This document shows, one piece after another, positions 49,191-63,943 of a stretch of DNA of 64,000 bases. A model generated the notes under the pieces. It was not told the DNA's origin. It did no database searches and saw only the letters and a list, made by a program, of their open reading frames with translations. This DNA is from Phycobacter azelaicus. Its GTDB lineage: Bacteria > Pseudomonadota > Alphaproteobacteria > Rhodobacterales > Rhodobacteraceae. The stretch spans positions 1,286,001-1,350,000 of the forward strand of contig NZ_WKFH01000003.1 of the NCBI RefSeq assembly GCF_014884385.1. Reading direction: 5' to 3'. The translations under genes and the position numbers were made by a program. The number at the start of each line of letters is the position of its first letter. Positions within the stretch are counted from its first letter, which is position 1.

Positions 49191-49257
49191 GGCTCTCCCG
49201 CCCGTCATCACCCTTCTTAATGGAAGGGTGCCTCCTGTTGGGCCCGGCGCTGCGCAA
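49191..49257 (+). repeat. Structured intergenic repeat, unit E
   Basis: GGCTCTCCCGCCC box, hairpin 1 ACCCTTC / GAAGGGT (49209-49228), TTGGGCCCGGCGC box, then the arm of a long stem shared with the reversed unit E'. The joint stem GGGCCCGGCGC / GCGCCGGGCCC has an 11-bp arm on each side of a 13-nt loop. It lies between the iorB 3' end and the fucosyltransferase start. Confidence 0.7.
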
Positions 49258-49328
49258 AGCGCGGCGCCGGGCCCAAGGCCGCCAAGGGTGTCGTGGCAGT
49301 GCCACGGCATCCTGCGGGCGCGGGAGGG
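49258..49328 (-). repeat. Structured intergenic repeat, unit E' (inverted)
   Basis: Read on the minus strand: CCCTCCCGCGCCCGC, hairpin 1 CGTGGCA / TGCCACG (49293-49307), CTTGGGCCCGGCGC box, then the stem shared with unit E. It forms a head-to-head pair with E, comparable to B/B'. Confidence 0.65.
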
Positions 49329-49347: not shown

Positions 49348-50889
49348 TCAGATGAAGCTTTGGATGGTTTTCAGCGCACCGTCGAGGGCTTCGCCTTTTT
49401 CGTCCTGCAGGGCGGCTTCCCGCAGGCGGGCGACCCATTCGGGGCCGTCTTCGCGGGCCTCGACTAGTCTTGCGCCATCCAGAACGCGGTCAAACTTCGA
49501 AAGACCCCGCGCATGGGTGTCGGAATAGCCCTTGATCAGCCTGCGGCAGCGCAGGATTTCGACCGCCATGTCATAGCGATCCGGCAGGTAGCCATGGGCG
49601 CGGGCCAGCCAATCGTCCAGATGAGCCTGCTCCAGTGCGTGACGGTGGGTCTTGCGACGCCAGCCACGTAGGCCTCCGATCAGGTAAAGCATGACAAAGC
49701 CGCGCAGGCTGTCGGTGCGGATGCGGCGTCCCTTGTTGAACAGGCGATCCAACCGCTTCATCCAGGTGGGGCTTGCTTCAACCCGGGCGCCCAGACGGGC
49801 AGGAAACAAGCCTGCAATCTCCTCGGCACGGGGATGCAGGTAGTCGGTGAGGGTCATCGCCTTGCCTGCGCTGCCAATCTCACCTTCGATACGTTCGAAC
49901 CGGCTGGCACGGGTCTTGAGGTCGGCCACGCGGATCACGTCGTCATAGGCCATGGCGTTAGCGATGTATTTCGCTGCTTCGCGAGACAACATGTGGTCGC
50001 GGCTGGCGTGGTCTTTCGCCACGAAAGTGTCGAGCCGGTCCAGATATTCCGCACCATAGGCGACGTCCTGGAACTCCACCACCTTCCGGAGGCCTGCCTC
50101 TGCCATCTCCTGCACTTGGGCTGGCAAGGCGGCGATGCGGGCCGTCAGGCCCTCGAACGCGCGGATCTGCCGTGGCGAACCTGATGGAGCCTGCGCCGGT
50201 ATTGCTTTGGGCTGTCCTGTTGGACGATCTTCCCCCGTCTGCGCGAGATCATACCCGGCAGCAAAGGCGCGCAGGCTGGCCTCGACCCCCTTGCCTGACG
50301 CGCGGATCGCATCCTCGAAAGCGGTTCGTTCAAACGGCAGGGCGCCGGATCCGGCCAATGCTCCGAACAGTGACGCCGAGATCACCGACCCCGCGCCCAC
50401 GGCCGCGCGTTCCATATCGGCCATGATCAGCTTTTCAGCGGCCATTTCGGCGGCGGCGCGCACCTCTTCGGCATCGGCCATACCGTCGCCGGGCACCATC
50501 TTTTCCGAAACCGCCAGCGCCCGGTGGGTTGAGGCAATCAGGGTCGTGCGATCAGGGGTTACAAAGCCGCGCAGGATAGCGCGCCCGGCCTCCATCATCT
50601 CGGCGGCAATCATCACGTCCACGTCGCCCTGTGCGGGCGCCAGGGAGAATACCGGGTTCGGGACTGAGGCCGGAGCCATCTCGACATAATAGATCGTGGC
50701 ACCTGTGCGCTGGGCGACGCCCGCAACGCTGGTAGCTTGGGCGTTGTAGCCTTGAGACCGCGCCAGGGATTCGATCCAATTGGTCAGCACGCCGCCGCCC
50801 TGGCCACCCACGGCGAGGATCGCCAGTTTGATCACTCCTTCGAGCCCGGCATCGCGCTGGCCCGCCCCGATTGGCAGTTCGATGGACAT
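49348..50889 (-). CDS. iorB: Indolepyruvate oxidoreductase subunit beta (IorB-type, long form)
   Basis: The 513-residue protein has an N-terminal gamma-domain-like segment (LAILAVGGQGGGVLTNWIE near residues 20-38, VAGVAQRTGATIYYVEM) that carries the usual IorB fold, followed by a long C-terminal helical extension. Classical archaeal IorB is only ~200 residues; the extended form occurs in proteobacterial aryl-pyruvate oxidoreductases. With IorA it oxidatively decarboxylates a 2-oxo acid to acyl-CoA. The start overlaps the iorA stop in ATGA. Confidence 0.88.
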   Translation of the reverse strand: MSIELPIGAGQRDAGLEGVIKLAILAVGGQGGGVLTNWIESLARSQGYNAQATSVAGVAQRTGATIYYVEMAPASVPNPVFSLAPAQGDVDVMIAAEMMEAGRAILRGFVTPDRTTLIASTHRALAVSEKMVPGDGMADAEEVRAAAEMAAEKLIMADMERAAVGAGSVISASLFGALAGSGALPFERTAFEDAIRASGKGVEASLRAFAAGYDLAQTGEDRPTGQPKAIPAQAPSGSPRQIRAFEGLTARIAALPAQVQEMAEAGLRKVVEFQDVAYGAEYLDRLDTFVAKDHASRDHMLSREAAKYIANAMAYDDVIRVADLKTRASRFERIEGEIGSAGKAMTLTDYLHPRAEEIAGLFPARLGARVEASPTWMKRLDRLFNKGRRIRTDSLRGFVMLYLIGGLRGWRRKTHRHALEQAHLDDWLARAHGYLPDRYDMAVEILRCRRLIKGYSDTHARGLSKFDRVLDGARLVEAREDGPEWVARLREAALQDEKGEALDGALKTIQSFI

Positions 50890-53051
50890 CAGGCGGCTCC
50901 CTGGCTCACGGTGCTGGAAAACTGCAGGCGCCGTGCCGAACGACGGTTTTGCAGCCACGAAATGACCCGCGTTCGCAGCCCTGCCTTCCAACGCTCAAAC
51001 CCGGTGGGATTATGCACCACACGGGCCTCGTAGAAAGAGGGGCACAGGATCGCAGCATCGGCAACCTCACCGCAGTTGCCACAGCCAACGCAGGTCTGGT
51101 CGATATGGGCAACCGGATCGTCGCGCAGGGGATCGTCGAGTTTCTTCAAGGACAGCGACGGGCAGCCCGACAGGCGGATACAGGCGTGATCGCCGGTGCA
51201 GATGTCCTGATCGACGCCGAAACGGGGCACCTCGACGCGGGTGCCTTCCTTGATGGCGGCATTGCGCAGGGGTTTCTCCCGCCGCTGCCGGTTCAGCATG
51301 CATTCCGAGGAGGCGACGATCACCTTTGGCCCGTCATAATCGGTGGTCAGCGCCTCGCGGATGGTGGCGCGCATCTGTGTGACGTCATAGGTGCGGTCGA
51401 TCTGGCGGATCCATTTGACGCCCGCGCCCTCCAGCGCCTTGGTGATCGGGTTGTTGGTCGCCTTGCTGGTATTCTTGGCGCGGCTTGAGGGGATATCCTG
51501 TCCGCCGGTGGCAGCGGAATAGTAGTTATCGACGATGATGGCGACGCTGTCGGACTTGTTGAACACCATGTTCCCGATCGAGGAACTGAGCCCGTTGTGC
51601 CAGAAGCCCCCATCGCCAAGGATCGAGATCGCACGCTTTTCGCCGCCGCCGTCAAAGGCCGCGTTTGAGGCCGGGCCAAGACCATAGCCCATGGTCTGCC
51701 CGCCGATTTCGAACGGAGGCAGGGCGGCGAAGAGGTGACAGCCGATATCGGCCGAGATCTGATGTTTGCCGAGCTCCTTCTCCACCAGCTTCATCGAGGC
51801 AAAGATGGGCCGCTCAGGGCAGCCGGTGCAGAACCCCGGCGGGCGGATCGGCACGGTCTGGCTGAGGTCCGGGATCTCGGGCGCGGGTTCGTTGGGGGCG
51901 AGGATCTGACCGGGCAAAAGGCTTGCGGCATAGGTGCGCAGAAAGTCTTCGATCCCGTCTTTCATCACCTGGCCGGTGTATTCGCCCGCCTTGGGGAAAG
52001 TGCCCTTGCCTTCGAGTTTCGTGCTGCTGCCCGCTTTGTAGAGCATCGCGCCCAGTTGCTGCTCGATGAACTCGGGCTGGCCTTCCTCGATCATCAGGAC
52101 GGCGTCCTTGTCTTTGCAGAAATCGAGAAGATCGCTTTGCACCAGCGGGTAGGTCACGTTCATCACGTAAAGCGGCACGTCCGTGTTGCCGGACAGATCT
52201 GCAAGGCCAAGGCGCTGCAGCGCGCGGATGACGCTGTTGTACATACCGCCAAGGCAGATCAGCCCGACCTTTCCCTCCTTGGGGCCGAACCGCTCGTTCA
52301 GGCCATTTTCGAGGATGTATTTCTCGGCAGCTGGCCAGCGGTTGTCGATCTTGTCATGCTCGTGCAGATAGGACATCGGCGGCAGCACCACGCGGGAGAA
52401 ATCCCGCTGCGGGTTGGCCAGCGCATCGCGCACGGTCAGATTGGGCCGCTGGTTGTCGCGGCAGTCAAAGGTGCCGGTCACATGGCACGACCGGATGCGC
52501 ACCATCAGCATCACCGGAGTGTTAGAGGCTTCGGAGAGGCCAAAACCATCGCCCACTGATTTCACGATCGAGGGCAGATTGGGGCGCGGATCCAAGAGCC
52601 AGAACTGTGACTTCATCGCAAAGGCATAGGAGCGTTCCTGCATGATCGAGGAGCCTTCGCCGTAGTCTTCCCCCACCACCACAAGGGCGCCGCCGGTGAC
52701 CCCGGAGGAAGCGAGGTTCGCCAGCGCATCAGAGGCCACGTTGACCCCGACCGATCCCTTGAAGGTGACAGCGCCCCGGATGGGATAATGCACCGACGCG
52801 GCCAGCATCGCTGCGGCTGCCGCCTCTGACGCGTTCGCCTCGTAGCGAACGCCAAGTTCGCCAAGCAGATCCTCGGCATCGGCCAGAACATCCATCAGGT
52901 GCGAGATCGGAGCCCCCTGATAGCCGCCCACGTAGCCTACCCCGTTTTCAAGCAGAGCCTTGGTGATGGCGAGAATACCCTCTCCGGTAAAGCTGTGCCC
53001 TGCGCCTTTGCGAAGGTGCTCGACTTCTGCCTTGAACGACCTTTCGGCCAT
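50889..53051 (-). CDS. iorA: Indolepyruvate oxidoreductase subunit alpha (IorA-type)
   Basis: The 720-residue protein has a pyrimidine-binding domain at the N terminus (GYVGGYQGAPISHLMDVL; EANASEAAAAAMLAASV) and a TPP-binding domain with GDGGFWHNGLSSSIGNMVFN near residue 515. It also has two C-terminal ferredoxin-type Cys clusters (CTGDHACIRLSGCPSL; CVGCGNCGEVADAAILCP). It oxidises an arylpyruvate or other 2-oxo acid and reduces a ferredoxin. The ATG at 53051 has AGGAGGC upstream. The MarR gene ends 28 bp before it. Confidence 0.92.
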   Translation of the reverse strand: MAERSFKAEVEHLRKGAGHSFTGEGILAITKALLENGVGYVGGYQGAPISHLMDVLADAEDLLGELGVRYEANASEAAAAAMLAASVHYPIRGAVTFKGSVGVNVASDALANLASSGVTGGALVVVGEDYGEGSSIMQERSYAFAMKSQFWLLDPRPNLPSIVKSVGDGFGLSEASNTPVMLMVRIRSCHVTGTFDCRDNQRPNLTVRDALANPQRDFSRVVLPPMSYLHEHDKIDNRWPAAEKYILENGLNERFGPKEGKVGLICLGGMYNSVIRALQRLGLADLSGNTDVPLYVMNVTYPLVQSDLLDFCKDKDAVLMIEEGQPEFIEQQLGAMLYKAGSSTKLEGKGTFPKAGEYTGQVMKDGIEDFLRTYAASLLPGQILAPNEPAPEIPDLSQTVPIRPPGFCTGCPERPIFASMKLVEKELGKHQISADIGCHLFAALPPFEIGGQTMGYGLGPASNAAFDGGGEKRAISILGDGGFWHNGLSSSIGNMVFNKSDSVAIIVDNYYSAATGGQDIPSSRAKNTSKATNNPITKALEGAGVKWIRQIDRTYDVTQMRATIREALTTDYDGPKVIVASSECMLNRQRREKPLRNAAIKEGTRVEVPRFGVDQDICTGDHACIRLSGCPSLSLKKLDDPLRDDPVAHIDQTCVGCGNCGEVADAAILCPSFYEARVVHNPTGFERWKAGLRTRVISWLQNRRSARRLQFSSTVSQGAA

Positions 53052-53079
53052 GGGCGCCTCCTTGGCTTGTCTTCGGGGG

Positions 53080-53574
53080 TCAGATCTGGTGCACGCGCAC
53101 GTTGCGCAGAATAGTTTGCAGGGTGGCGACGAACTGGCGCTGCTCTTCTTCGCTGATGCCTTTGAACATCTGCGCATAGGCCGCAGCGATATGCGGCCAG
53201 AGCTTTTCCTGCGTTTCACGACCCCTCGGCGTCATGTAGATGCGGGTGGCGCGGCTGTCGTCCGGGTCAGGGCAGCGGGAAATCAGCCCTTCCTTTTCCA
53301 TCTTGTCCAGGGATCGGCTGAGCGTCGATTGCTCCACCACCGCATAGACGGCAAGTTCACGGATCAATAGTCCATCCATCACGGAAAGCACCGCCAGCGT
53401 CCGCATCTTGGGTGTCGTTAGGCCCAGGGCCGCCATTTCTTCGCGCAGGGAGGCGTTGTAGCGCCCCATTATGCGGTTCATCAGGTAGGGCGGGAAATTC
53501 TCCAGCCCGATCTCTCCCAGCCGCGGCGTACCTGCGGCTTGCGGTTCTTGCGTGACAACATTTTCCTCGTTCAT
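53080..53574 (-). CDS. MarR-family transcriptional regulator
   Basis: The 164-residue protein has a winged-helix domain with PKMRTLAVLSVMDGLLIREL near residues 54-73, EQSTLSRSLDKMEKEGLISR near 84-103, and the wing motif PDDSRATRIYMTPRG. MarR proteins usually repress a nearby divergent promoter and are released by an aromatic or acidic ligand. Its start overlaps the upstream FAD oxidoreductase stop by 4 bp, so it is cotranscribed with the catabolic genes. The palindrome between the two operons (56002-56017) is a good operator candidate. Confidence 0.92.
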   Translation of the reverse strand: MNEENVVTQEPQAAGTPRLGEIGLENFPPYLMNRIMGRYNASLREEMAALGLTTPKMRTLAVLSVMDGLLIRELAVYAVVEQSTLSRSLDKMEKEGLISRCPDPDDSRATRIYMTPRGRETQEKLWPHIAAAYAQMFKGISEEEQRQFVATLQTILRNVRVHQI

Positions 53575-55130
53575 GCACCCATCCTTTTAGCAAGGTTGTA
53601 GCCGGACCCGCCGCCCAGACCAGGTCCGGGGTGGGTCGCAGCGCCAATCATATGCAGGTCCTTCACTGCGGTGGTGTTATTGACCGATTGAGGGAAGGGG
53701 CGCCAGACAAAGAACTGGTCGAGGGTGCAGGCCCCGCCATAGGGGTCGCCGCCCACCAGATTCATGTTCAGATCCTGCAGGTCGGCGGGGGAATAGGCGC
53801 GGCGGGCCAGTTTGATCTTGTCGAAATCCTTGATGTGCCGGGCAAGGATCGCCTCGATCCGGTTGGCAAAGGCTTCGCGGGTAGCCTCGTCCCACTCTGG
53901 CCCTGTTTCGATCTGGCCTGCGGCATCCCCCTTGATCACGCGGGGGGCGTCGGGGATCTGCAGCCAGAGGATCGCCTTGCCGTCCGGGCAGCGGGTGGGG
54001 TCCATGCGATGGGGCTGGCCGACGCAGATGGTCGGGGTTTCGGGCAGCATGCCGCGCTCCGCTTCGTTGGCGGATTTCGACACGCTGTCGACGCCATCGG
54101 CGAGGTGGATCAGAGCGACGTCTTCCAAGCCTTCGCTCAGCCATTCGGGGGCAGCGTCCAGCGCATAGTGCAGCTGGAAATTGCCACGCCCATGGCGATA
54201 ATTCTTGGTGGCTTCGGGGGCATCCTCTTGCGGCAACAGACGGCCATACAGCTGCGAGGGGGTGACCGATGCAATGACCGAGGCGCCGTGGATCACCTCG
54301 CCATCGCTGGTCTCCACGCCCACGGCATGCCCGTTCTGTGTGATGATCCGGGTCACATCCGTGCCCGTGCGGATCACGCCGCCGTTTCCCGTGATCAGGC
54401 GACCGAATGCCCCAGCCGCTGCACCGGCGCCGCCCTTGACCACGGGCGCCCCAGCGGCCTCCAGCGCGAAGGCGACGACCCGGCCCATCTGGGCAGAGTA
54501 GGTGCTTTCCGGGGTCAGCCCGCAGTGGAGCACCCAGGGCGCCCATAGGGCCTGCATGTCTTCGGAGCCGTAAGAGGATTCCAGCCAGCCCCGCGCCGGT
54601 TGCAGCGCCGCGCCGACCCAGGATTTGAGGCCGTTTAAGCCCCGCTTCCAGGCCTGTTTCGCCATCAGTTTGGCGGTGCCCAGCGACCAGAGTGGCCCGC
54701 CGAGCAGAGCAAAAAGGAACTCCGCATCCGCTTCGATCCCGCCCACATCGCGGCCATGCTGCGCCCCGTCGCCGGGATGTAGTGCGTCAAAGGCCGCAAT
54801 ATTGGTGGCGCGGTCCATGGTCAGCACCGTGGCGCGCCCGTTCGGGCGCAGTACTGCCGTGGGATGGGCGGTGTGGCAGAACTCCAGCCCGTGCTTGCCC
54901 AGATCCTCGGCCAGCTCTGCATAGGCGGGGGAGGTCAGGAACAGAACAAAGGTCGCCGCCATCACATCATGGGCATAGCCCGGCAGCGTGATCTCATCGG
55001 TGCGCATGCAGCCGCCGATCCGATCAGAGCGTTCAAGCATCAGAACCGGCTGCCCCTTGCGGGACAGGAGCGCGGCGGAGACCAGCGCGTTGATGCCAGA
55101 GCCGATGATGATATGCGGAGCGGCGGCCAT
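53571..55130 (-). CDS. Phytoene-dehydrogenase-like FAD oxidoreductase, copy 1
   Basis: The 519-residue protein opens with IIIGSGINALVSAALLSRKG, the N-terminal FAD fold, then LERSDRIGGCMRTDEITLPG. The C-terminal part NLVGGDPYGGACTLDQFFVW...GAATHPGPGLGGGSGYNLAKR resembles carotenoid desaturases and the NAD(P)/FAD-dependent oxidoreductase branch of that superfamily. No carotenoid genes are nearby, so it is more likely an unusual dehydrogenase or isomerase for the substrate handled by this divergon. A paralogue lies at 56049. Confidence 0.85.
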   Translation of the reverse strand: MAAAPHIIIGSGINALVSAALLSRKGQPVLMLERSDRIGGCMRTDEITLPGYAHDVMAATFVLFLTSPAYAELAEDLGKHGLEFCHTAHPTAVLRPNGRATVLTMDRATNIAAFDALHPGDGAQHGRDVGGIEADAEFLFALLGGPLWSLGTAKLMAKQAWKRGLNGLKSWVGAALQPARGWLESSYGSEDMQALWAPWVLHCGLTPESTYSAQMGRVVAFALEAAGAPVVKGGAGAAAGAFGRLITGNGGVIRTGTDVTRIITQNGHAVGVETSDGEVIHGASVIASVTPSQLYGRLLPQEDAPEATKNYRHGRGNFQLHYALDAAPEWLSEGLEDVALIHLADGVDSVSKSANEAERGMLPETPTICVGQPHRMDPTRCPDGKAILWLQIPDAPRVIKGDAAGQIETGPEWDEATREAFANRIEAILARHIKDFDKIKLARRAYSPADLQDLNMNLVGGDPYGGACTLDQFFVWRPFPQSVNNTTAVKDLHMIGAATHPGPGLGGGSGYNLAKRMGA

Positions 55131-55136
55131 CTGCTT

Positions 55137-55928
55137 TTATCCTTTGGGAACCAGCGCCAAGGCGCGGATCGGGCTGCCGGTGCCGCGCTCGATCTTCAGC
55201 GGGGCGGCGATCAGGATGGCGCCCTTGGGCGGCAGCTTGTCGAGGTTGGCAAGCGAGGCCAGGCCAAAGCAGTTGTCGCGGTGCAGCAGGTTGTGCGCCG
55301 GGTAGGGCGGCTCCATCCCGCCGGCCTGACCGGCATCGGTGCCGATGCACTGGCTACCCCAGCCTACGATGCCCTTGCTGAGAAGGTACTCGATCGCATC
55401 CGGGGTCGGCCCGGGGCTGTGCGGGCCGGTTTCATCGGCGTTGAGGAAGGCCGCCTCGTCGCCTGCGCGCTTGTCCCAGTCGGTACGCATCACCACCCAT
55501 TCGCCCTTGCCGATTTCGCCATGCTCGGCCTCCCAGGCCTTGATCAGATCGGCGGTCAGCAGGAAATCCTCATTTTCCGCGCTTTCGGCGGAGCAGTCGA
55601 TCACATTGACCGGAGCAATCAGGCGCTGCACGTCCAGCGTGTCTGTGAAGCCTTCCTCATAGTCCTTGCCGGTGATCCAGTGGTGCGGCGCATCGAAATG
55701 CGTGCCGGAATGTTCACCTAGCACCATCCAGTTCCAGGCAAAGAACGGACCATCCTCGTCGTATTCGCTGATCTTGTGGATCTCGACCTTGGGGGTGTTC
55801 TTTGCAAAATCCTCGGGCAGTTGCAGGATCGGATTGTTCGGACCCAGCACGCCGGTGCAGTCCACGACCTCGATCTCTCCGGTCAAAAGCTTGGCGCCAA
55901 GCCCGTCCAATGCGGTTGTTGCGGTCAT
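55137..55928 (-). CDS. Cyclase family metal-dependent hydrolase
   Basis: The 263-residue protein has the metal-binding HSGTHFDAPHHW motif near residues 68-79, typical of the cyclase/kynurenine-formamidase-like family, and a C-terminal GAILIAAPLKIERGTGSPIR. Known members hydrolyse formamides, lactones or cyclic amides. It is the first gene of the minus-strand operon, and the ATG at 55928 follows a GGGAGGCG ribosome site. Activity on the pathway substrate is inferred from position only. Confidence 0.87.
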   Translation of the reverse strand: MTATTALDGLGAKLLTGEIEVVDCTGVLGPNNPILQLPEDFAKNTPKVEIHKISEYDEDGPFFAWNWMVLGEHSGTHFDAPHHWITGKDYEEGFTDTLDVQRLIAPVNVIDCSAESAENEDFLLTADLIKAWEAEHGEIGKGEWVVMRTDWDKRAGDEAAFLNADETGPHSPGPTPDAIEYLLSKGIVGWGSQCIGTDAGQAGGMEPPYPAHNLLHRDNCFGLASLANLDKLPPKGAILIAAPLKIERGTGSPIRALALVPKG

Positions 55929-55986
55929 TATCGCCTCCCGTGTTGTGCGCGGTCTGTTGCTGCCGCTTTTGTGCGATGACAAATCC

Positions 55987-56015
55987 ATGCTAGACAGATT
56001 TAAATGCATTTGCAA
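55987..56015 (-). promoter_or_regulatory. Candidate minus-strand promoter of the cyclase-ior operon
   Basis: TTGCAA (56010-56015) and TAGCAT (minus strand of 55987-55992) are separated by 17 bp. The TTGCAA sits inside the overlapping palindrome, so binding of a MarR dimer would occlude the -35. Each box matches only four of six consensus bases. Confidence 0.3.
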
Positions 56016-56017
56016 AT
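56002..56017. promoter_or_regulatory. Candidate MarR operator between the divergent operons
   Basis: Two overlapping perfect 10-bp palindromes, AAATGCATTT (56002-56011) and ATTTGCAAAT (56008-56017), lie in the 120-bp gap between the cyclase and FAD oxidoreductase starts. The position fits repression of both arms. No second copy was seen in the window. Confidence 0.45.
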
Positions 56018-56048
56018 ATCAATGTGTGAAGGATAAAGGAATCTCCCC

Positions 56049-57620
56049 ATGTCCACGGTGCCGGATGCAGTCATAATAGGAAGCGGTCACAATTCACTGG
56101 CCTGCGCTGCGCATCTGGCGGCGAAGGGGTGGCGCGTTGCCGTCTACGAGCGCGCCGAAGTGCCGGGCAGGGCTGTAAAGACAGGTGAATATACGCGTCC
56201 CGGCTTTCGCCATGATTGGGCTGCGATGAATCTATCCCTTTTTGCAGGGTCTTCATTTCATCAGGCATATGCACAGGAGCTTGCGGGTCATGGGCTGTCT
56301 TTCGCGCCTGCGGCCAATTGTTTTGCTTCGGTTTTTCCGGATGGGACCTGGCTGGGAATCGGCACCGACGTGGGTGCGAATACGGCGCGAATCGAGCGTG
56401 AGAACCCGGCGGATGCCAAAGCCTGGGAGGCGTTGAGCGCAGAATTCCCGGCGCGTGCTGAAACTTTGTTCGCTCTTCTCGGAAGTCCGATCAATAAACG
56501 TGCATTTGCATCTTTAGGGTGGAAGTCCTGGCGCAAGATGGGCTCTGCCGGGCTGATGGATCTGGGTCAGTTCCTGGCTTCATCCCCGCGCAGTTGGCTG
56601 GAAGAGACGTTTCAGTCGCCCAAGGTGCGCGCGCTGCTGGCGGCCTGGGGCATGCATCTGGATTTTGCCCCCGATGTGGCGGGCGGTGCCCTGTTTCCCT
56701 ATCTCGAAGGGCAGGTCAATCAGGCCTTTGGCATGGTGCTGGGGCAGGGCGGCGCCGACGGCATGATCAAGGCGATGGTCGCCATGATCGAAGCGCGCGG
56801 CGGGTATGTGACCTGTGGGGTAGAGGTTTCGCGCGTTTTGCAGTCTGGCGGGCGGGCTACTGGCGTTGAGTTGGCCGATGGCACGCGGGTAGAGGCGAAA
56901 AGGGCGGTGATCGCCAATGTCGCCCCCGCCGCGATGTTGCGGTTGACCGGTGGCACACCTGACAAACGGTACGACCGGGGGATGGAGACATTCTCACATG
57001 CGCCGGGCACCATGATGATCCACTTGGCCATGGAGGATCTGCCGGATTGGGCGGCGGGCGAAGAACTCAAGCGGTTCGCCTATGTGCATATGGCGCCGAG
57101 CCTTGATCAGATGGCCCGCACCTATGCGCAGGCCAAGGCGGGGCTGTTGCCGGATGAGCCGGTGATTGTCTGCGGTCAGCCGACCGCAATCGACCCCAGC
57201 CGCGCGCCCGAGGGAAAGCATGTGCTGTGGCTGCAGGTGCGCATGGTGCCGGGACAGATCAAAGGCGATGCCGCTGGCGAAATCACCGCAACCGAATGGA
57301 CAGAGGCTGCGCAGCCGATGGCAGAGCGCGCGCTTGATCTCCTTGAAACCTATGCACCCGGCACAAGGGCAAAGATCCTTGGCCAGCATATCGTGACTCC
57401 CGCCATGCTGGAGGCCGACAACCCCAACCTTGTGGGCGGGGATCAGGTCTGCGGCAGTCACCATCTGAACCAGCATTTCATGTTCCGGCCCCTGCGCGGG
57501 TTCGCTGACGGCTCAACCCCCATTCGTGATCTCTATCACACCGGGGCGGCGGTCTGGCCAGGCGCGGGAACCGGGGCCGGGGCGGGATACCTGCTCGGGC
57601 AAAAACTGGCCGGCGCCTAA
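56049..57620 (+). CDS. Phytoene-dehydrogenase-like FAD oxidoreductase, copy 2
   Basis: The 523-residue protein is a paralogue of the divergent gene at 53571. It starts with AVIIGSGHNSLACAAHLAAKG, has an ERAEVPGRAVKTGEY lead of the FAD fold, and ends with NPNLVGGDQVCGSHHLNQHF and HTGAAVWPGAGTGAGAGYLL. Both paralogues keep the NLVGGD box and the Gly-rich C terminus. The ATG has AAAGGA upstream. The ABC importer genes follow on the same strand, so the enzyme is probably co-induced with uptake. Confidence 0.85.
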   Translation: MSTVPDAVIIGSGHNSLACAAHLAAKGWRVAVYERAEVPGRAVKTGEYTRPGFRHDWAAMNLSLFAGSSFHQAYAQELAGHGLSFAPAANCFASVFPDGTWLGIGTDVGANTARIERENPADAKAWEALSAEFPARAETLFALLGSPINKRAFASLGWKSWRKMGSAGLMDLGQFLASSPRSWLEETFQSPKVRALLAAWGMHLDFAPDVAGGALFPYLEGQVNQAFGMVLGQGGADGMIKAMVAMIEARGGYVTCGVEVSRVLQSGGRATGVELADGTRVEAKRAVIANVAPAAMLRLTGGTPDKRYDRGMETFSHAPGTMMIHLAMEDLPDWAAGEELKRFAYVHMAPSLDQMARTYAQAKAGLLPDEPVIVCGQPTAIDPSRAPEGKHVLWLQVRMVPGQIKGDAAGEITATEWTEAAQPMAERALDLLETYAPGTRAKILGQHIVTPAMLEADNPNLVGGDQVCGSHHLNQHFMFRPLRGFADGSTPIRDLYHTGAAVWPGAGTGAGAGYLLGQKLAGA

Positions 57621-57663
57621 CAAAATCAACAAGCCGGTCTTCCAACCAACAGGGAAACGCAAA

Positions 57664-59190
57664 ATGAAACTCACAAGACGCACGTTATTACAAAGTACCG
57701 CCGCCAGTGTAGCCCTTGCCGGGGCCAGCCTGCCCAGCTTTGCCGCCGGGATCGAGGAACTGGTGATCGCCTACAACGTCAATCTGCCCAGCTGGGACCC
57801 AACCGTGGGCCCTTCGGCGGTGAACCCGACCATCCAAGGCATCTACCAGTCGGTGTTTGACCTGTTCATTCCGCAGAACCCGGATCTGTCGTTCGGCTCT
57901 GGCATCCTGACCGGCTATGGCTGGAATGAGGACAAGACCAAGATCTGGATGGATGTGCGCGAAGGGGTGACTTGGCACAATGGCGACCCCCTGACGCCCG
58001 AGGACGTGGCCTGGTCGCTGGAGCGCGCGGGCAATCCAGAGACCGGCAACCCGATCCAGTTCATCTGGGGCAAGATCGGCAATTATGCCATCGATGGCAA
58101 CCGGGTGACGGCGGATGTTCTGGCCTATGAGCCGACGATCTTCAAATGGATGAGCTTCCTCACCGGCTATATCCTGCCCAAGAACTACTATGAGTCCGTC
58201 GGCGCCGATGGATTCGAGGCCGCCCCCGTGGGCACCGGCCCCTATATGGTCGAAAAGTTTGAGCGCAACGCCTTCGTGCGCCTCAAGGCCAATGAAAACT
58301 ACTGGGGCGGCGCGCCCGAGTTCAAATCCGTCACCATTAAATTCGTGACCGATGCCGCCAGCCGCGTGGCCGAGGTGGAATCGGGCAACGCCCATGTGAC
58401 GTTGGAAATGCCCTATGAGGAGTTCGACCGCCTCAAAGAGAAATCCGGTATCATGGGCACCGCCGCGCCGGTCTCGGATATCGGGATGATCTTCATCAAC
58501 GATGTGGACGTGATGAAGGACGCCAATGTGCGTATGGCCATGGCCCATGCCATCGACAAGCAGTTGATCATCGACCGCCTGCTGTCCGGCTATGGCGTTG
58601 CCATCGACACGCTGCAGACGCCGGACTATTCCGCCTATGACGCTTCGATCAAGGTCGCCTATGACCCTGAGAAGGCCAAGGAGTTGCTGGCGGCCTCGGG
58701 TTATGGGCCGGACAATCCGGTCAAGTTCACCATCCAGACCACCCGCGGCTTCAAGCCGAAGGATTACGAGATCATCCAGGCCATCGTCGGCCTCTGGCGC
58801 CGGGTCGGGATCGAGGCCGAGATCGAAGTCTACGAGATCGCCAAACACTACGAGCTGCGCGCGGCGGATACGTTGGCGCCTGCGGCCTTCTACAACTGGG
58901 GCAACTCGATCGGTGATCCCACAACCTCGACCGGCTTTGCCATGTTCGGCCCCTCGCCGCATTCGGTCTGGGATGGCGAAGACCTGATGCAGAAGATCCT
59001 GCCTTTGTGGGGGGAAGCGGATGAGGCCAAGCGGATCGATGGCTGGAAAGAGGTGGATCGCTTCATCGCGGCCAATGCGCTAGTCATTCCGCTGCTGCAA
59101 TATGTTCAGCCGATCCTGCACAGTGAGCAGGTCAAGGTTGTTCCCCATGCCTCCGGGGCGCTTCTGCCCCACCTGATGACGCGGGCCTGA
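57664..59190 (+). CDS. ABC transporter substrate-binding protein, peptide/opine type (SBP_bac_5), Tat signal
   Basis: The 508-residue protein has a signal peptide with an Arg pair and a hydrophobic core ending in AAGASLPSFA-like Ala sites (MKLTRRTLLQ...); the RR followed by TLLQ suggests Tat export. The mature chain has the family's VTWHNGDPLTPEDVAWSLER near residues 97-116 and GTGPYMVEKFERN. Such proteins bind di- or oligopeptides, but also opines, nickel and amide or sugar derivatives. A large hairpin separates it from the permease genes, a common way to make more binding protein than permease. Confidence 0.92.
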   Translation: MKLTRRTLLQSTAASVALAGASLPSFAAGIEELVIAYNVNLPSWDPTVGPSAVNPTIQGIYQSVFDLFIPQNPDLSFGSGILTGYGWNEDKTKIWMDVREGVTWHNGDPLTPEDVAWSLERAGNPETGNPIQFIWGKIGNYAIDGNRVTADVLAYEPTIFKWMSFLTGYILPKNYYESVGADGFEAAPVGTGPYMVEKFERNAFVRLKANENYWGGAPEFKSVTIKFVTDAASRVAEVESGNAHVTLEMPYEEFDRLKEKSGIMGTAAPVSDIGMIFINDVDVMKDANVRMAMAHAIDKQLIIDRLLSGYGVAIDTLQTPDYSAYDASIKVAYDPEKAKELLAASGYGPDNPVKFTIQTTRGFKPKDYEIIQAIVGLWRRVGIEAEIEVYEIAKHYELRAADTLAPAAFYNWGNSIGDPTTSTGFAMFGPSPHSVWDGEDLMQKILPLWGEADEAKRIDGWKEVDRFIAANALVIPLLQYVQPILHSEQVKVVPHASGALLPHLMTRA

Positions 59191-59209
59191 CACCACGTCT
59201 TCCTTGGCG

Positions 59210-59254
59210 GCGGGGGGCGGATTGATTGCGCCGACCCCCCGCGGCCCTTTTTCA
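59210..59254 (+). terminator. Hairpin after the binding-protein gene
   Basis: GCGGGGGG (59210-59217) and CCCCCCGC (59235-59242) pair, with inner GCG/CGC contacts, followed by GGCCCTTTTT. It lies between the binding-protein stop and the first permease start at 59280, and probably attenuates or stabilises the mRNA rather than ending the operon. Confidence 0.6.
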
Positions 59255-59279
59255 CGACCTGACAGAATGAAGGTAGACA

Positions 59280-60290
59280 ATGCAGATCCTGCGCAGAATG
59301 ATCGCGCGGCTGGCGGCCACGGCTGTGACGCGGGTCGGGGTGGCGGTCATCGTCTTTGTGGTCATCCGCGTGGTGCCGGGCAACCCGATTGCCATGATGC
59401 TGCCGCCGGGGGCCACCGATGCGGATATCCAGCGGCTTCAAGAACTTTACGGCCTTGATAAAACCATCCCCGAGCAGTTCCTGATCTGGGCGGGCGGCGT
59501 GCTTCAGGGCGATTTCGGCACCTCCATTTCGCTGCGCCAGCCGGTGTCCGAGCTGGTTCTGGGTCGTCTGCCCGCCACGCTGGAGCTTTCGGTGATGGCG
59601 CTGGTCATCGCGGTGATCCTCGGCGGAGGCATGGCGCTGACTGCGACCCTATATCGGGGCACGCGGTTAGAGGGCGCCATTGATGTCACCGGCGGCATGG
59701 CCCTGTCGGTGCCGGATTTCCTCTGGGGGCTGGTGCTGATCCTGCTCTTTGGTGTGCTTTGGCCCCTGTTTCATATCTCGGGGCGCATCTCGCCCTCTTT
59801 GGGGTTTGAGTTTCAGTCGAACTTCTACCTTTGGGAAAGCTTTGTCCGCCTGCGGTTTGATGTCTGGGCGGATATCGTCGCCCATATGTTCATGCCCGCG
59901 CTGGCGCTGGCGATTCCGCTGGCGGCGATCATCTCGCAGCTGCTGAAGCAGTCGCTTAAGGAAACCATGCATCTGGATTACGTGACCCTGGCGCGCACCA
60001 AGGGGTATTCCGAGACCAGCATCATCACCCGCGAGGCGCTGCCCAATGCGATCCTGCCGACGCTGACGCTGGTCGGGGTGCAGTTCACCTTCCTGATCGG
60101 AGGCACGGTCATCGTGGAGCGGCTGTTCTCTTATGAAGGGCTTGGCAACATGGCGATCGACGCGGTGATCAACCGCGATCTGCCGCTCATTCAGGGGATC
60201 GTGATCCTGTTCGCTCTGATTTTCACCGTGGTCAATCTGGTCGTCGATATGACCTATGCCGCCCTGAACCCGAGGCTGCGTCATGCGTGA
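59280..60290 (+). CDS. ABC transporter permease, DppB-like
   Basis: The 336-residue membrane protein has about six helices. It opens with a DppB-like segment (VVPGNPIAMMLPPGATDADI) and contains the EAA loop near LARTKGYSETSIITREALPN (residues ~240-260), the contact with the ATPase. GGTVIVERLFSYEGLGNMAI follows. The 3' end overlaps the next gene by 8 bp. Confidence 0.92.
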   Translation: MQILRRMIARLAATAVTRVGVAVIVFVVIRVVPGNPIAMMLPPGATDADIQRLQELYGLDKTIPEQFLIWAGGVLQGDFGTSISLRQPVSELVLGRLPATLELSVMALVIAVILGGGMALTATLYRGTRLEGAIDVTGGMALSVPDFLWGLVLILLFGVLWPLFHISGRISPSLGFEFQSNFYLWESFVRLRFDVWADIVAHMFMPALALAIPLAAIISQLLKQSLKETMHLDYVTLARTKGYSETSIITREALPNAILPTLTLVGVQFTFLIGGTVIVERLFSYEGLGNMAIDAVINRDLPLIQGIVILFALIFTVVNLVVDMTYAALNPRLRHA

Positions 60291-61131
60291 TACAAGAGCA
60301 CATACCCGCGAACCCGGTCTGCGCCTGTGGCTGTCGGGGGGCTGGATCACCATTCTGGTGCTGGCTGCCCTGCTTGCCCCCTGGATCAGTCCGCATGACC
60401 CGTTGGCGCAGGATCTGTTCGCCGGGCGCATGCCGCCCTTCTGGCAGGCGGGGGCCGATCCCAACTACCTGCTTGGCACAGATTCCCTGGGCCGTGATGT
60501 CCTGAGCCGCATTCTGCATGGTGCGCGCCTCGCCTTGACTGTGGCGCTGATTGCCGGGGTTCTGACCTGCCTGATCGGCGCCGCGCTGGGGCTGATCGCG
60601 GGTTACTATGGCGGTTGGGCCGATCTGGTGATCTCGCGCCTTGTTGACATCTGGATGGCCTTCCCGCCGGTGCTCTTTGCGATCCTGCTGATCGCTGTCC
60701 TAGGCACCGGCATGACCTCGATCATTATCGCCATCGTGGTGATCGACTGGACGCGGTTCGCCCGCGTCATTCGGGCCGAGGCGATGAGCCAGTCCAAGAT
60801 GGATTATGTGGCCTCGGCCCAAGTGGTGGGGCGCAGCCGGTTTGGTACCGCCCTGACCGAGATCCTGCCCAATGTGCTGCCCACCATCGTGGCGCTTCTG
60901 ACGCTGGAGATGGGCATCGCGGTCATCGTTGAGGCGATCCTCAGCTTTGTGAACCTGTCGATTTCCACCGATGCGCCCACATGGGGCGGGATGATCGCCG
61001 AGGGGCGTACCTCGGTGCATCAGGCCTGGTGGGTGCTGGTCTTCCCGTTGGTCGCCCTGTTCTTCACCGTCCTCAGTTTCTCCCAATTGGGTGAGGGGCT
61101 GAAGGACCATTTCGATCCGGTGCTGCGATGA
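60283..61131 (+). CDS. ABC transporter permease, DppC-like
   Basis: The 282-residue protein has five to six helices and the N-terminal LLAPWISPHDPLAQD segment typical of DppC. LLGTDSLGRDVLSRILHGARL (residues ~63-83) and the EAA loop SQVVGRSRFGTALTEILPNV are present. It pairs with the DppB-like subunit to form the membrane channel. The start lies inside the previous gene's end, and its stop overlaps the ATPase start. Confidence 0.92.
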   Translation: MRDTRAHTREPGLRLWLSGGWITILVLAALLAPWISPHDPLAQDLFAGRMPPFWQAGADPNYLLGTDSLGRDVLSRILHGARLALTVALIAGVLTCLIGAALGLIAGYYGGWADLVISRLVDIWMAFPPVLFAILLIAVLGTGMTSIIIAIVVIDWTRFARVIRAEAMSQSKMDYVASAQVVGRSRFGTALTEILPNVLPTIVALLTLEMGIAVIVEAILSFVNLSISTDAPTWGGMIAEGRTSVHQAWWVLVFPLVALFFTVLSFSQLGEGLKDHFDPVLR

Positions 61132-62000
61132 GCTTTCTGTCCATTCAAGACCTGACCGTGCGGCTGCGGGGCAACCTGCCGATTCTGCGCCGTGTCTCCA
61201 TCGATGTGGCGGCGGGAGAGGTGCGCGCCCTCGTTGGCGAAAGCGGCGCGGGCAAATCCATGATTGGCAAATCGGTTCTGGGCACCCTGCCGCAGGCGCT
61301 GGGCATCACCGGTGGGCGGATCATCCTGGACGGCGAGGATCTGGAGCAGCTCTCCCCCCGTGCCCGCCGCCAAAGGATCGGCGCCAAGGTCGCTTTGATC
61401 CCGCAGGATCCCTTGACCGCGCTCAACCCCTCGCGCCGGGTCGGGCCGCAGATCACCAATCGCCTCGTCGATATCCTCGGCTGGACCCGCAAGGCGGCTG
61501 ATGCCCGCGCGCTGGAGCTTTTGGCAGAGGTCCATATCCCCGATCCCGCCCGTGTTGTGCGCGCCTACCCGCACGAGCTGTCGGGGGGGATGCGCCAGCG
61601 GATCCTAATCGCTTCGGCTTTTGCGGCAGAGCCGAAGCTGATTATCGCGGACGAGCCGACAACCGCGCTGGATGTGACCGTGCAGAAACAGATCCTTCGG
61701 CTGATCTCGGAGATGCAGCAGCGCCACGGCACCGCGCTCTTGTTCGTGACCCATGATCTGGGTGTGGTCTCCAAGGTCTGCCAGACCATGACCGTGCTCT
61801 ATTCTGGCATGGTGGTCGAGGACACGAATGTGCGCGATTTCTTCGCCAGCCCAGGGCATCCCTATTCGGCGGCCCTGTTGGCAGCGACGCCGAAATACAC
61901 CGATCCGGACGGTAGCCTGACCCCGGTGCCAGATGCGGTGATCCGCGCGGTCGAGGAAGAAGTCGCGGGTTTTGATCGCGAGATGGAGGGCGCGGCATGA
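61128..62000 (+). CDS. ABC transporter ATP-binding protein, DppD-like
   Basis: The 290-residue ATPase has Walker A GESGAGKSMIG near residues 37-47, the signature LSGGMRQR near 152-159, Walker B LIIADEPTTALD near 171-182, and the H-loop in FVTHDLGVVS. One of two nucleotide-binding subunits for the importer. Four-base overlaps link it to its neighbours. Confidence 0.95.
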   Translation: MSFLSIQDLTVRLRGNLPILRRVSIDVAAGEVRALVGESGAGKSMIGKSVLGTLPQALGITGGRIILDGEDLEQLSPRARRQRIGAKVALIPQDPLTALNPSRRVGPQITNRLVDILGWTRKAADARALELLAEVHIPDPARVVRAYPHELSGGMRQRILIASAFAAEPKLIIADEPTTALDVTVQKQILRLISEMQQRHGTALLFVTHDLGVVSKVCQTMTVLYSGMVVEDTNVRDFFASPGHPYSAALLAATPKYTDPDGSLTPVPDAVIRAVEEEVAGFDREMEGAA

Positions 62001-62800
62001 GCGATGTGATCTATGACGTAAAGGATCTGCGGCTCAGCTTTCCCGATATGTCGCGCAAGCCAATTCTTGGTCCCGCGCCCCGCATCGAGATCCTCAAAGG
62101 TCTGACCTTCCAGATCCCCAAGGGCGAGGTGCTGGGTATTGTCGGCGGGTCTGGCTCTGGCAAATCCACCCTCGGGCGGGCGCTGATCCGGCTGATTGAA
62201 CCGGACAGCGGCCAGATCGATTTCGAGGGAACAGACATCACCCATATGGGCGAGGACGAACTGCGACCCCTGCGGCGTCGGTTCCAGATGATCTTTCAGG
62301 ATCCCCTGTCCTCGCTCAACCCGCGCCGCCGGGTGGCGGGGATCATCGCCGGGCCTTTGCGCCTGCAGGGGCTAGAGGGGATCGATACCCGCGTCAATGA
62401 GGCGCTGGATATGGTGGGCCTGCCCCGCAGCTTTGCCAGCCGCTATCCGCATGAATTGTCCGGCGGACAGCGTCAGCGCGTCGGGATCGCCCGCGCCATC
62501 GCCCTAAGCCCCGATTTCATTCTGGCGGATGAGATCGTCTCGGGGCTGGATGTATCGAGCCAGGCGCAGGTGCTGAATCTGCTCGAAGAGCTGGTACGCG
62601 AGTTGGGCCTTACGCTGGCCTTCATCAGCCACGACCTGTCGGTGATCCGCCGCCTGTGCAGCCGCATTCTGGTGCTCTATCAAGGCGAAATCGTCGAGAA
62701 CGCCGCCACGGCGGATCTCTTTGCGGCGCCTGCAGCGCCCTACACGCAAGAGCTGTTGTCGGCGATCCCCTTACCTGATCCTGATCAGGTCTGGGCCTAA
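61997..62800 (+). CDS. ABC transporter ATP-binding protein, DppF-like
   Basis: The 267-residue ATPase has Walker A GGSGSGKSTLG near residues 49-59, LSGGQRQRVGIARAIA near 154-169, Walker B FILADEIVSGLD near 174-185 and FISHDLSVIRRL. DEIVS replaces the common DEPTS in the Walker B region. It pairs with the DppD-like subunit. Its stop faces the convergent PLP gene 12 bp away. Confidence 0.94.
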   Translation: MSDVIYDVKDLRLSFPDMSRKPILGPAPRIEILKGLTFQIPKGEVLGIVGGSGSGKSTLGRALIRLIEPDSGQIDFEGTDITHMGEDELRPLRRRFQMIFQDPLSSLNPRRRVAGIIAGPLRLQGLEGIDTRVNEALDMVGLPRSFASRYPHELSGGQRQRVGIARAIALSPDFILADEIVSGLDVSSQAQVLNLLEELVRELGLTLAFISHDLSVIRRLCSRILVLYQGEIVENAATADLFAAPAAPYTQELLSAIPLPDPDQVWA

Positions 62801-62812
62801 GGCGGGGCTATT

Positions 62813-63943
62813 TCAGCAGACATCGAAGGGGCGCCACGTCTGGCTGATACGCGCGCCGTCAAAGACCTGCAACTCGGGGAATTGCTGGAGCACGGCCTCA
62901 GATTGTGTTGGGCGAAACACCAACTGGCTTGGCTCTACTGCGTGCCGTGGCAAGCAGAACCCATGTTGGTTTGAGGAGGGCGCAAAGAACGGGCTGGCGC
63001 TCAGGCCGACTGGGAAAACCGGATCTGCCATCCATTTGCCGCCATAGCAGAAAGCGATGCGATCCCGGATGACACCGGTCTTTTGCAGGATGCGGGTCAG
63101 ACGCGGATGGCCGGGCAATTGATGGTCATAAATCTTCAGAACCGGCGTCACGATAAAGGCTGCCGGTTCGATCTGTGCGTTGATGGGTTGATCAAAGTCG
63201 GATGGCTTGATCATCAAGGATCCGATAGTGAAATCATTCGCAGGCCCCGACATCGGCAATCCAAGAAGGGTCGAACTGCCGGCGGTGTTGATGATCTCGC
63301 GCTGATCTGGCGTCAAGCAGTCAGCAAAATCAGCCAGCCGTCTCATCGCCTCGGCCTGGGCGTTTTTCCCGCCGCCAAGGATTTTGGGCAGGGCGTGGAT
63401 ATGGGCCTCATATCCCATAAGACCACAGACCTTTAGCTGACCCGTCTGGCCAAGAATGACACGCAGATCCGCTGGTTCGGCAAAACCCCCGCGACCAAGG
63501 CCGATATTGACCTCAAAAGCGATGCGAAGTGTGGTTTCGGTTTGCTCTGCCAGTGCTCGGTACTCGGCAAGACGGGCTGCGCTGTCGATGAGCCATGTGA
63601 CCTGATTGGCGAGCGGAGTCTGATCGATGAATGTTGCCGCCGCCGCAACGGGCATGGGCTTGCCCAAAAGGATTTCTGCCCTGGGAAAATGTTCCAGAAG
63701 TTGCGCCGTCAGCGGGAGGTGAAAGGACATCACCCGCTGTGTTCCAAATACCTCAAAGCCTTGTTTAAGCAGGGCAGGCACCGGGATGGATTTATCGGCA
63801 AGACGCAAACGATCCGTGTTGGGTAGGGCCTTGCGTATTGTCTTCAGGTTCTTTGTCAGACGCTCGGCATCAATGACCAGCGCCGGGCGATGCAAGCCAG
63901 CCAGTTTGACCGCATGGATCAACCGTTCGTAGTAGTGGGTCAT
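62813..63943 (-). CDS. PLP-dependent amino acid deaminase/aldolase-like protein (alanine racemase N-terminal fold)
   Basis: The 376-residue protein has an alanine-racemase-like TIM barrel with ALVIDAERLTKNLKTI near residues 21-36, a likely PLP Lys in LRLADKSIPVPALLKQ near residue 51, and VCGLMGYEAHIHALPK and INTAGSSTLLGLP further on. It resembles D-threonine aldolase or D-serine dehydratase-like enzymes rather than a true racemase, since a C-terminal beta domain with the usual racemase Tyr is not apparent. The start overlaps the stop of the next upstream gene in ATGA, tying it to the partial gene at the window edge. Confidence 0.8.
   Translation of the reverse strand: MTHYYERLIHAVKLAGLHRPALVIDAERLTKNLKTIRKALPNTDRLRLADKSIPVPALLKQGFEVFGTQRVMSFHLPLTAQLLEHFPRAEILLGKPMPVAAAATFIDQTPLANQVTWLIDSAARLAEYRALAEQTETTLRIAFEVNIGLGRGGFAEPADLRVILGQTGQLKVCGLMGYEAHIHALPKILGGGKNAQAEAMRRLADFADCLTPDQREIINTAGSSTLLGLPMSGPANDFTIGSLMIKPSDFDQPINAQIEPAAFIVTPVLKIYDHQLPGHPRLTRILQKTGVIRDRIAFCYGGKWMADPVFPVGLSASPFFAPSSNQHGFCLPRHAVEPSQLVFRPTQSEAVLQQFPELQVFDGARISQTWRPFDVC

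Follow-up and report, generated by a model that had tools for sequence, protein, structure and literature searches.

A conserved marine gene cluster with a probable isatin hydrolase, most likely for the uptake of an indole-type compound and the degradation of indoles via isatin

We analyzed a window of 64,000 nt from Phycobacter azelaicus (NZ_WKFH01000003.1), in which positions 49348-62800 hold a cluster of 11 genes on two divergent arms (Table 1). The minus arm runs leftwards from 55928 with a cyclase-family gene, a flavoenzyme gene (FAD1), a MarR-family regulator in third place, and IorA and IorB; the plus arm carries a second flavoenzyme gene (FAD2), a substrate-binding protein (SBP), two permeases, and two ATPases. 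All named genes have open frames and the expected domains (open reading frame and Pfam/NCBIfam checks), and the gene calls, coordinates, and divergent arms given in a preliminary description of this stretch are correct. The palindrome that it placed in the divergent gap (55929-56048) is present as two overlapping perfect 10-bp palindromes, AAATGCATTT (56002) and ATTTGCAAAT (56008), and the FAD oxidoreductases that it called paralogous, one on each arm, are 34% identical and form two separate clades, each at 100/100, which rules out a recent local duplication while leaving them paralogs. We read the locus as a catabolic cluster centered on isatin, with a constant core, FAD1 feeding that core, FAD2 and the importer as a second entry, and MarR over both arms, a reading that we place somewhat on the probable side. 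The most likely role of this conserved marine cluster is to import a compound of the indole type and to degrade indoles by way of isatin.

Table 1. Genes of the cluster and the proposed operator, with positions in the window
Feature	Position	Strand	Description
IorB	49348..50889	-	513 aa, POR-type domain + DUF6537; PF01558, PF20169; NF006179 680 bits, cut-off 348
IorA	50889..53051	-	720 aa, thiamine pyrophosphate (TPP)-binding alpha subunit, Cys-rich C-terminal tail; PF02775; TIGR03336 271 bits
MarR-family regulator	53080..53574	-	PF12802/PF01047
FAD1, CrtI-like flavoenzyme	53571..55130	-	PF01593; proposed dioxindole (3-hydroxyindolin-2-one) dehydrogenase giving isatin
Likely isatin hydrolase, IHB-type cyclase family	55137..55928	-	263 aa, PF04199
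29-bp element TTGCAAATGCATTTAAATCTGTCTAGCAT	55987..56015	-	Proposed MarR operator overlapping putative promoter TTGCAA - 17 nt - TAGCAT
FAD2, second CrtI-like flavoenzyme	56049..57620	+	PF13450/PF01593; proposed first oxidation of imported compound
SBP, SBP_bac_5, Opp/Dpp type	57664..59190	+	PF00496, 237 bits
Importer permease 1	59280..60290	+	PF00528, PF19300
Importer permease 2	60283..61131	+	PF00528, PF12911
Importer ATPase 1, OppD type	61128..62000	+	PF00005
Importer ATPase 2, OppF type	61997..62800	+	OppF/DppF-like models, scores below cut-offs

Among solved structures, the cyclase aligns over residues 1-262 of its 263 with isatin hydrolase B from Labrenzia (Roseibium) aggregata (PDB 4j0n/4m8d; 567.8 bits), and it shares 93% identity with its counterpart in Roseibium aggregatum IAM 12614. 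The metal motif of isatin hydrolases, HxG[T/A]HxDxPxH (PMC6117287; here and below, papers are cited for the accessible parts of their text), is intact as HSGTHFDAPHH at residue 73. Isatin hydrolase B has been solved and assayed on isatin (PMC6117287), and because the cyclase matches it over the full length with the metal motif kept, it is likely an isatin hydrolase of the IHB type, with isatin to isatinate as the likely chemistry at the node.

The genes are kept together well beyond this genome. We took as related loci the best 80 of 313 relatives of the cyclase protein found in a genome collection search, counting a gene as present at ≥50% identity. All 11 genes occur in one order in 43 of the 80 loci, and 41 of the 45 loci with FAD1 and enough sequence on both sides hold the full set, the exceptions being L025 (without IorAB, FAD2, and importer), L034 (without MarR and IorAB), L065 (no MarR at ≥50%), and L073 (without IorAB). 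The preliminary description had made its reading depend on the set being conserved together elsewhere and on co-regulation of the two arms, and these counts uphold the former. R. aggregatum IAM 12614 (L005) has the same cluster in identical order, and the window's nearest loci are L004 and L053 (Phaeobacter/Pseudophaeobacter). Neither flanking gene is conserved in the related loci (GT11 glycosyltransferase on the left, 48237-49310, in two of the 80; Ala_racemase_N gene on the right, 62813-63943, in none), and conservation thus marks the borders of the cluster.

Within the set, a four-gene core of hydrolase, MarR, IorA, and IorB is present in 68 of the 80 loci, while single-gene counts are 75 for MarR, 69 for IorB, 58 for FAD1, 55 for FAD2, and 51 for SBP. 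Of the 22 loci that have neither FAD gene, 21 retain the core; the core thus varies less than the rest, and the FAD genes with the importer make up one entry module among several. At the Paracoccus saliphilus locus (L096), the core adjoins Rieske, CoA-ligase, thiolase, and short-chain dehydrogenase/reductase (SDR) genes of the type found in auxin degradation (iad) loci, together with a tripartite ATP-independent periplasmic (TRAP) importer, and four Leisingera loci (L007, L008, L010, L014) have the core beside a TRAP-type binding protein. On the Sulfitobacter plasmid pDSM110093_c the FAD1//FAD2-importer part lies ~60 kb from cyclase-MarR-IorAB. In Alloyangia pacifica (L107), a single 25-kb stretch holds indole oxygenase genes, an NF006101 gene, hydrolase, FAD1, MarR, IorAB, FAD2, SBP, and importer.

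Some of the related loci have features of their own. In Phaeobacter sp. QD34_24 (L053, 10001) the isatin hydrolase is 84% identical to that of the window and its cluster neighbors 90-99%, as if the hydrolase alone had been replaced. A contig labeled Nocardioides marinus, an actinomycete (L016), carries a roseobacter cluster at 77-93% identity whose FAD genes are nearest the window's in the tree, and is probably a mislabeled or contaminated assembly. A class V pyridoxal phosphate (PLP) enzyme that weakly resembles kynureninase is encoded close to the cluster at 19 of the 80 loci, with and without FAD genes (e.g., L005, 16942-18108), and also in Caballeronia L094; in 10 loci a class I/II aminotransferase is nearby as well.

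IorA scores below the curated cut-off of 651 bits for TIGR03336 (indolepyruvate ferredoxin oxidoreductase), so by this model it is not the canonical indolepyruvate enzyme. A PDB sequence search with IorA gave no match, and a regular expression for the TPP motif matched a non-catalytic GDG and was discarded, leaving the TPP domain to Pfam. Isatinate (2-aminophenylglyoxylate) is a 2-oxo acid, the type of substrate used by the IorAB superfamily. We surveyed 199 genomes of the family, with statistics that ignore kinship and shared ancestry, for an IorA clade (≥64% identity) and for isatin hydrolase (E ≤1e-50, ≥46% identity, taking in the B type and a more distant type). The IorA clade occurs in 38 genomes and the hydrolase in 37, all of which hold the IorA clade; the sole IorA-clade genome without hydrolase is G139, which has a partial FAD1 (residues 200-519) that probably runs into the end of a contig. 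NF006101, named "bifunctional salicylyl-CoA 5-hydroxylase/oxidoreductase" and taken here to be of the 2-aminobenzoyl-CoA monooxygenase/reductase (ACMR) type, is found in 35 of the 38 IorA-clade genomes versus 35 of the 161 others (Fisher 4e-16). By contrast, among the six genomes with only a 51-55% IorA, none has the hydrolase and one has NF006101.

Gene neighborhoods point the same way. NF006101 lies ≤12 kb from IorA on the same contig in six genomes (G189, G071, G029, G095, G158, G110; distances by hand), and it is clustered with IorAB in Azospirillum (L093), Caballeronia (L094), Alloyangia (L107), and Tsukamurella (L108), as well as at loci L017 and L075. The Caballeronia, Shinella, and Ruegeria loci (L091, L092, L094) have a thioesterase gene after IorAB, along with genes for a cupin (gentisate-dioxygenase-like in L094), FAH, a nitrilase-like protein, and an Asp/Glu racemase, a set that likely encodes a lower pathway through 5-hydroxyanthranilate. 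The genome of P. azelaicus itself has NF006101 at 1295 bits (L098) in an operon with SDR, enoyl-CoA hydratase, acyl-CoA dehydrogenase, and CoA ligase genes. Because the IorA clade co-occurs with the hydrolase and NF006101, and because this genome has such an operon, we propose that IorAB is an isatinate:CoA oxidoreductase yielding 2-aminobenzoyl-CoA. A 150-aa frame of the L098 operon considered as a thioesterase (abmTE) proved wrong, its match in L107 being a gene annotated MarR. An IorA relative (64%, in two pieces) also occurs on a Variovorax plasmid from linuron-contaminated soil (L090), with an IS1071 transposase gene near on each side.

The context of FAD1 suggests a dioxindole dehydrogenase that gives isatin. 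In Azospirillum thermophilum (L104), the gene order is AraC, an SDR (IifB-like), a styrene/indole monooxygenase (IifC-like), a flavin reductase (IifD-like), a porin-like gene (IifE-like), FAD1 (60%), and a cyclase 49% identical to that of the window. The IifB/C/D/E-like genes are 58, 58, 49, and 30% identical to those of an Acinetobacter baumannii cluster (L115), to which we assigned iif names by position, the record having no annotation there; its gene order matches the described indole-oxygenase (iif) genes (PMC6221969, PMC12538310). The gene at the IifA position of L115 has no match in the L104, L107, and L108 stretches or in the 80 loci. Since IifA is reported to act on dioxindole (PMC6221969), FAD1 and the hydrolase stand where a dioxindole-consuming step is needed.

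The family survey ties FAD1 to both the core and indole oxygenation. All 22 genomes with FAD1 hold the IorA clade, and IifC-type genes occur in nine genomes, every one of them among these 22 (hypergeometric 4e-10), and in none of the 16 genomes that hold the IorA clade and lack FAD1 (Fisher 0.003). The IifC-type gene is 2-7 kb away from the nearest cluster gene in four of these nine genomes (G125, G029, G110, G195; by hand). P. azelaicus is one of the nine: ~0.7 Mb from the cluster, L121 reads AraC // IifB-IifC-reductase, with IifB 55% (A. baumannii) and 75% (Alloyangia), IifC 60% and 71%, and the reductase 54% (Alloyangia) identical. A search of the L121 stretch gave no IifA match, so IifA, IifB, IifC, and IifD do not stand together there as one cluster. 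Across the class, FAD1 is found at E ≤1e-100 in four of 387 genomes, the three besides P. azelaicus being 69-71% identical. A Brachybacterium relative of FAD1 has no isatin-hydrolase-type neighbor annotated within 8 kb. Tsukamurella L108 was considered as a carrier of both FAD genes and rejected, as its first flavoprotein has no full-length match to FAD1 or FAD2.

The AlphaFold2 models of FAD1 and FAD2 both have a predicted local distance difference test (pLDDT) score of 87 and the same best PDB match, the gamma-carotene desaturase 4rep (TM 0.78 and 0.75, respectively). CrtI and a Methanosarcina oxidoreductase follow, and flavin amine oxidases, nicotine oxidases among them, match more weakly; the top 50 include a tryptamine-bound amine oxidase (8eeh). 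These CrtI-type predicted folds support flavin-dependent dehydrogenation and do not give the substrate.

FAD2 travels with the importer. Each of the 51 SBP loci has FAD2, and SBP is absent from four loci with FAD2. Three of the 80 loci carry FAD1 and no FAD2 (L025, L055, L064; L055 is cut by a contig end), as do L104, L106, and L108. In Neorhizobium sp. SOG26 (L112, 2476-9557), FAD2 (54%) and the whole importer (57-68%) stand in a stretch with no FAD1 or isatin hydrolase. Because every SBP locus has FAD2 and L112 has FAD2 and the importer alone, FAD2 probably acts on the imported compound. What that compound is forms the weakest part of our reading: we would guess at an indolic or oxindolic compound, perhaps oxidized auxin or its conjugate. 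The nearest solved relatives of SBP are named as peptide, agrocinopine, and nickel binders and indicate no single ligand, and the names of the best 120 of 4568 FAD2 homologs are all general ones (phytoene desaturase family, NAD(P)/FAD-dependent oxidoreductase, putative dehydrogenase). No isatin-hydrolase-type neighbor is annotated within 8 kb of the FAD2-like proteins of haloarchaea, Cedecea, and Agrobacterium leguminum.

Both palindromes of the divergent gap lie inside or overlap a 29-bp element that is conserved in close relatives. Of the 81 regions preceding the hydrolase, 67 have the element TTGCAAAYGCATNTAAWTNTGTCTAGCAT with ≤7 mismatches, namely 56 of the 59 with FAD genes (58 loci and the window) and 11 of the 22 without. 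None of 1620 mononucleotide shuffles reached ≤7 mismatches, a comparison that overstates the weight of the element, as we derived the pattern visually from these same, related sequences. The first 16 bases of the element have a single occurrence in the P. azelaicus genome at ≤1 mismatch. Before IorA or the hydrolase in L091-L094 and L107-L109 the element is poor (≥8 mismatches), so it is a feature of close relatives. A strict sigma-70 scan gave no promoter at the element, which can be read as an operator over the putative promoter given in Table 1. From its place and constancy, we suggest that MarR binds there. The conserved element supports co-regulation of the two arms, as the preliminary description had assumed, at the level of sequence only: both separated parts of the cluster on Sulfitobacter pDSM110093_c carry it at their promoter regions, with 3 and 2 mismatches.

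Among solved structures, the nearest relative of MarR is 3cjn (187 bits), followed by 7kym and 7kua, both of which were deposited with the paper on the MarR of an auxin locus; the match to 7kfo reaches 36 bits. The indole-3-acetic acid (IAA)-binding MarR_73 (IadR) is described with Ser28, His32, and Arg46 as its carboxylate-binding residues. MarR accompanies the core regardless of which entry genes are present, so its ligand is probably an intermediate late in the pathway and common to all entries, either isatin or isatinate. The divergent gap also contains a terminator-like stem-loop with a T-rich tail (55949-55966, plus strand; two overlapping matches versus a mean of 0.2 in shuffles). Elsewhere in the window, the singlet-oxygen resistance small RNA SorX (RF02784, 90 bits, 17174-17246, plus strand) is the sole Rfam match over threshold.

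These observations can be assembled into a pathway, for which the gene set, the identity of the hydrolase, the conservation, the co-occurrence, and the 29-bp element come from sequence, and the FAD1 and IorAB reactions and the regulation are deduced from context. FAD1 would oxidize dioxindole, the product of the IifBCD-type indole oxygenase set encoded elsewhere in the same genome, to isatin; the hydrolase would open isatin to isatinate; and IorAB would convert isatinate and CoA to 2-aminobenzoyl-CoA and CO2 by oxidative decarboxylation. The 2-aminobenzoyl-CoA would then enter the monooxygenase/reductase route encoded elsewhere in the genome without an anthranilate-CoA ligase step. The Opp-type importer would take up an indolic or oxindolic compound, probably larger or charged, which FAD2 would oxidize towards dioxindole, and MarR would repress both arms from one element. 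The preliminary description had proposed import, FAD oxidation, ring opening by the cyclase, and decarboxylation by IorAB; this general order fits, and its steps now become specific, with isatin as the ring opened and isatinate as the 2-oxo acid. Its link to phenylalanine breakdown in Phaeobacter finds no support: the other two Ior-like frames of the genome, L002 (C3:735731, 1148 aa) and L003 (C3:3202248, 1156 aa), are only 26 and 28% identical to IorA, and these long, probably fused frames are probably the aromatic amino acid enzymes that were meant. A broader proposition, on which we stand evenly balanced, is that FAD1 is a dedicated dioxindole dehydrogenase, that IorAB, and hence IadAB of auxin loci, is an isatinate:CoA oxidoreductase, that isatin in marine bacteria is therefore a true hub at which indole, auxin, and an imported indolic compound meet, and that FAD2 and the importer form a further undescribed entry.

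Several findings weigh against this pathway. FAD1 is missing from 16 of the 38 IorA genomes, where isatin must therefore form by other means, and Agrobacterium L106 has FAD1 (43%) with no isatin hydrolase or IorAB in the stretch examined. Four FAD1 loci with enough downstream sequence (L025, L034, L052 with 6 kb, and L073) have no IorA there. The aminobenzoyl-CoA operon of P. azelaicus has its own CoA ligase, and IorAB would therefore be a second route to aminobenzoyl-CoA. In Variovorax, anthranilate was restored by the iadC-K2 region on its own (PMC12633357), which makes IadAB dispensable for anthranilate formation there. L012 and L013 have FAD2 without SBP in the 5 kb beyond it, and L025 and L064 have FAD1 without FAD2 despite room. 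The FAD2-importer unit of L112 adjoins alkanesulfonate monooxygenase and taurine/sulfonate-type transporter genes and says nothing of indoles. Lastly, the top 50 solved fold matches of FAD1 and FAD2 are carotenoid desaturases and amine, nicotine, and protoporphyrinogen oxidases, among others, none of them named for oxindoles.

We weighed four other explanations. The locus could be a marine version of the iad locus, in which IAA enters through the importer while FAD1 and FAD2 stand in for the Rieske oxygenase and for the steps that remove the side chain. IorA/IorB-type genes with MarR are hallmarks of iad loci (PMC9613470), the Paracoccus core L096 lies beside Rieske, AMP-ligase, and thiolase genes, and Rieske-beta, ligase, and thiolase matches flank a full FAD cluster in Tateyamaria (L057). 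That last locus, however, has iad-type and FAD genes together, which argues against simple replacement, and the P. azelaicus genome has no close relative of the Rieske subunit (best 26%, residues 25-225 of 441). With no ligase/thiolase set for side-chain removal in the cluster and an Opp-type importer unlike the B-III type of IadK2 (PMC10374108), we consider this origin unlikely, although IAA itself may be the compound imported. It is similarly doubtful that the hydrolase and FAD1 act as proposed while a different enzyme, or none at all, turns isatinate into anthranilate and IorAB serves another 2-oxo acid. Anthranilate formation in Variovorax with only iadC-K2 (PMC12633357), the IorA relatives at 51-55% identity without isatin hydrolase, and the four FAD1 loci without IorA nearby would fit such a split; against it, the ≥64% IorA clade is without the hydrolase only in G139, and IorAB adjoins ACMR and thioesterase genes on named records.

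The cyclase and the FAD pair might instead act on another cyclic amide or an amino-acid-derived ring, with isatin as a side substrate. The peptide-type importer would suit this, as would the Sulfitobacter FAD1/FAD2/importer part, which adjoins proline-racemase-family genes, but the full-length match to an enzyme solved and assayed as isatin hydrolase (PMC6117287) and the restriction of indole oxygenase genes to FAD1 genomes among the 199 lead us to give it little credence. We regard it as highly improbable that FAD1 and FAD2 are carotenoid-type desaturases that stand here by chance: despite their CrtI-like fold and best NCBIfam matches to CrtO and CrtI models, they score 151 and 189 bits for CrtO, far under the cut-off of 1000 (and 91 and 118 bits for crtI_fam, cut-off 238), FAD1 occurs in the 199 genomes only where the IorA clade is (22 of 22), and the gene order is fixed in 43 loci.

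The isatin cluster that we propose bears on two gaps in the literature. A 2018 review left the part of isatin in indole degradation open and noted that none of the iif genes had been linked to its production or use (PMC6221969). A 2025 preprint on iad reports intermediates C8H7NO2 and C8H7NO3 (PMC12633357), which we read as the formulas of dioxindole and isatinic acid; nowhere in its accessible text is an enzyme given for the step from dioxindole to isatin, or a function for IadAB (PMC12633357). The cluster offers concrete candidates for both, with phyletic and neighborhood evidence. Many of its marine carriers are named strains. The imported indolic compound to which the cluster points may bear on the algal-bacterial exchange of auxin-type signals. 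The preliminary description could not match the gene combination to a described pathway, which is too strong for the core, since isatin hydrolase (PMC6117287) and MarR with IorA/IorB in iad loci (PMC9613470) are already known, and holds for the full set: in the open-access literature searched, which leaves subscription journals mostly outside, we found no description of the whole cluster with FAD1, FAD2, and an Opp-type importer, no role for IadAB, and no dioxindole dehydrogenase.

Among known systems, isatin hydrolase B of L. aggregata is a close full-length match, and R. aggregatum IAM 12614 carries the same cluster; the main text of its paper, as accessible, does not use "operon" or "gene cluster" (PMC6117287). 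The iad loci of Variovorax and Bradyrhizobium (PMC9613470, PMC12633357, PMC10374108) share IorA/IorB-type IadA/IadB and MarR, a route through dioxindole, isatin, and isatinic acid towards anthranilate, and IadI, which is annotated as kynurenine formamidase and likely belongs to the cyclase family; the accessible text of these papers assigns no reaction to IadAB. There, iadA/iadB are exclusive markers (PMC9613470), and IorA/IorB-type genes are indeed present here, and the IorA that adjoins Rieske genes is 68% identical in L093 and 78% in L096. Unlike iad loci, this locus has neither Rieske IadDE and reductase IadC nor CoA ligase IadF and thiolase IadG, and has FAD1, FAD2, and an Opp-type importer instead. 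The 2-aminobenzoyl-CoA monooxygenase/reductase pathway is represented in P. azelaicus by the L098 operon, with the difference that we propose it to be fed by IorAB as well as by a CoA ligase. With the iif/ind cluster of Acinetobacter and Cupriavidus, whose reported oxygenase product is 3-hydroxyindolin-2-one (PMC6221969, PMC12538310), the P. azelaicus genome shares IifB-, IifC-, and reductase-like genes, but whereas IifA goes straight to anthranilate there, FAD1 and the isatin hydrolase appear to replace it here.

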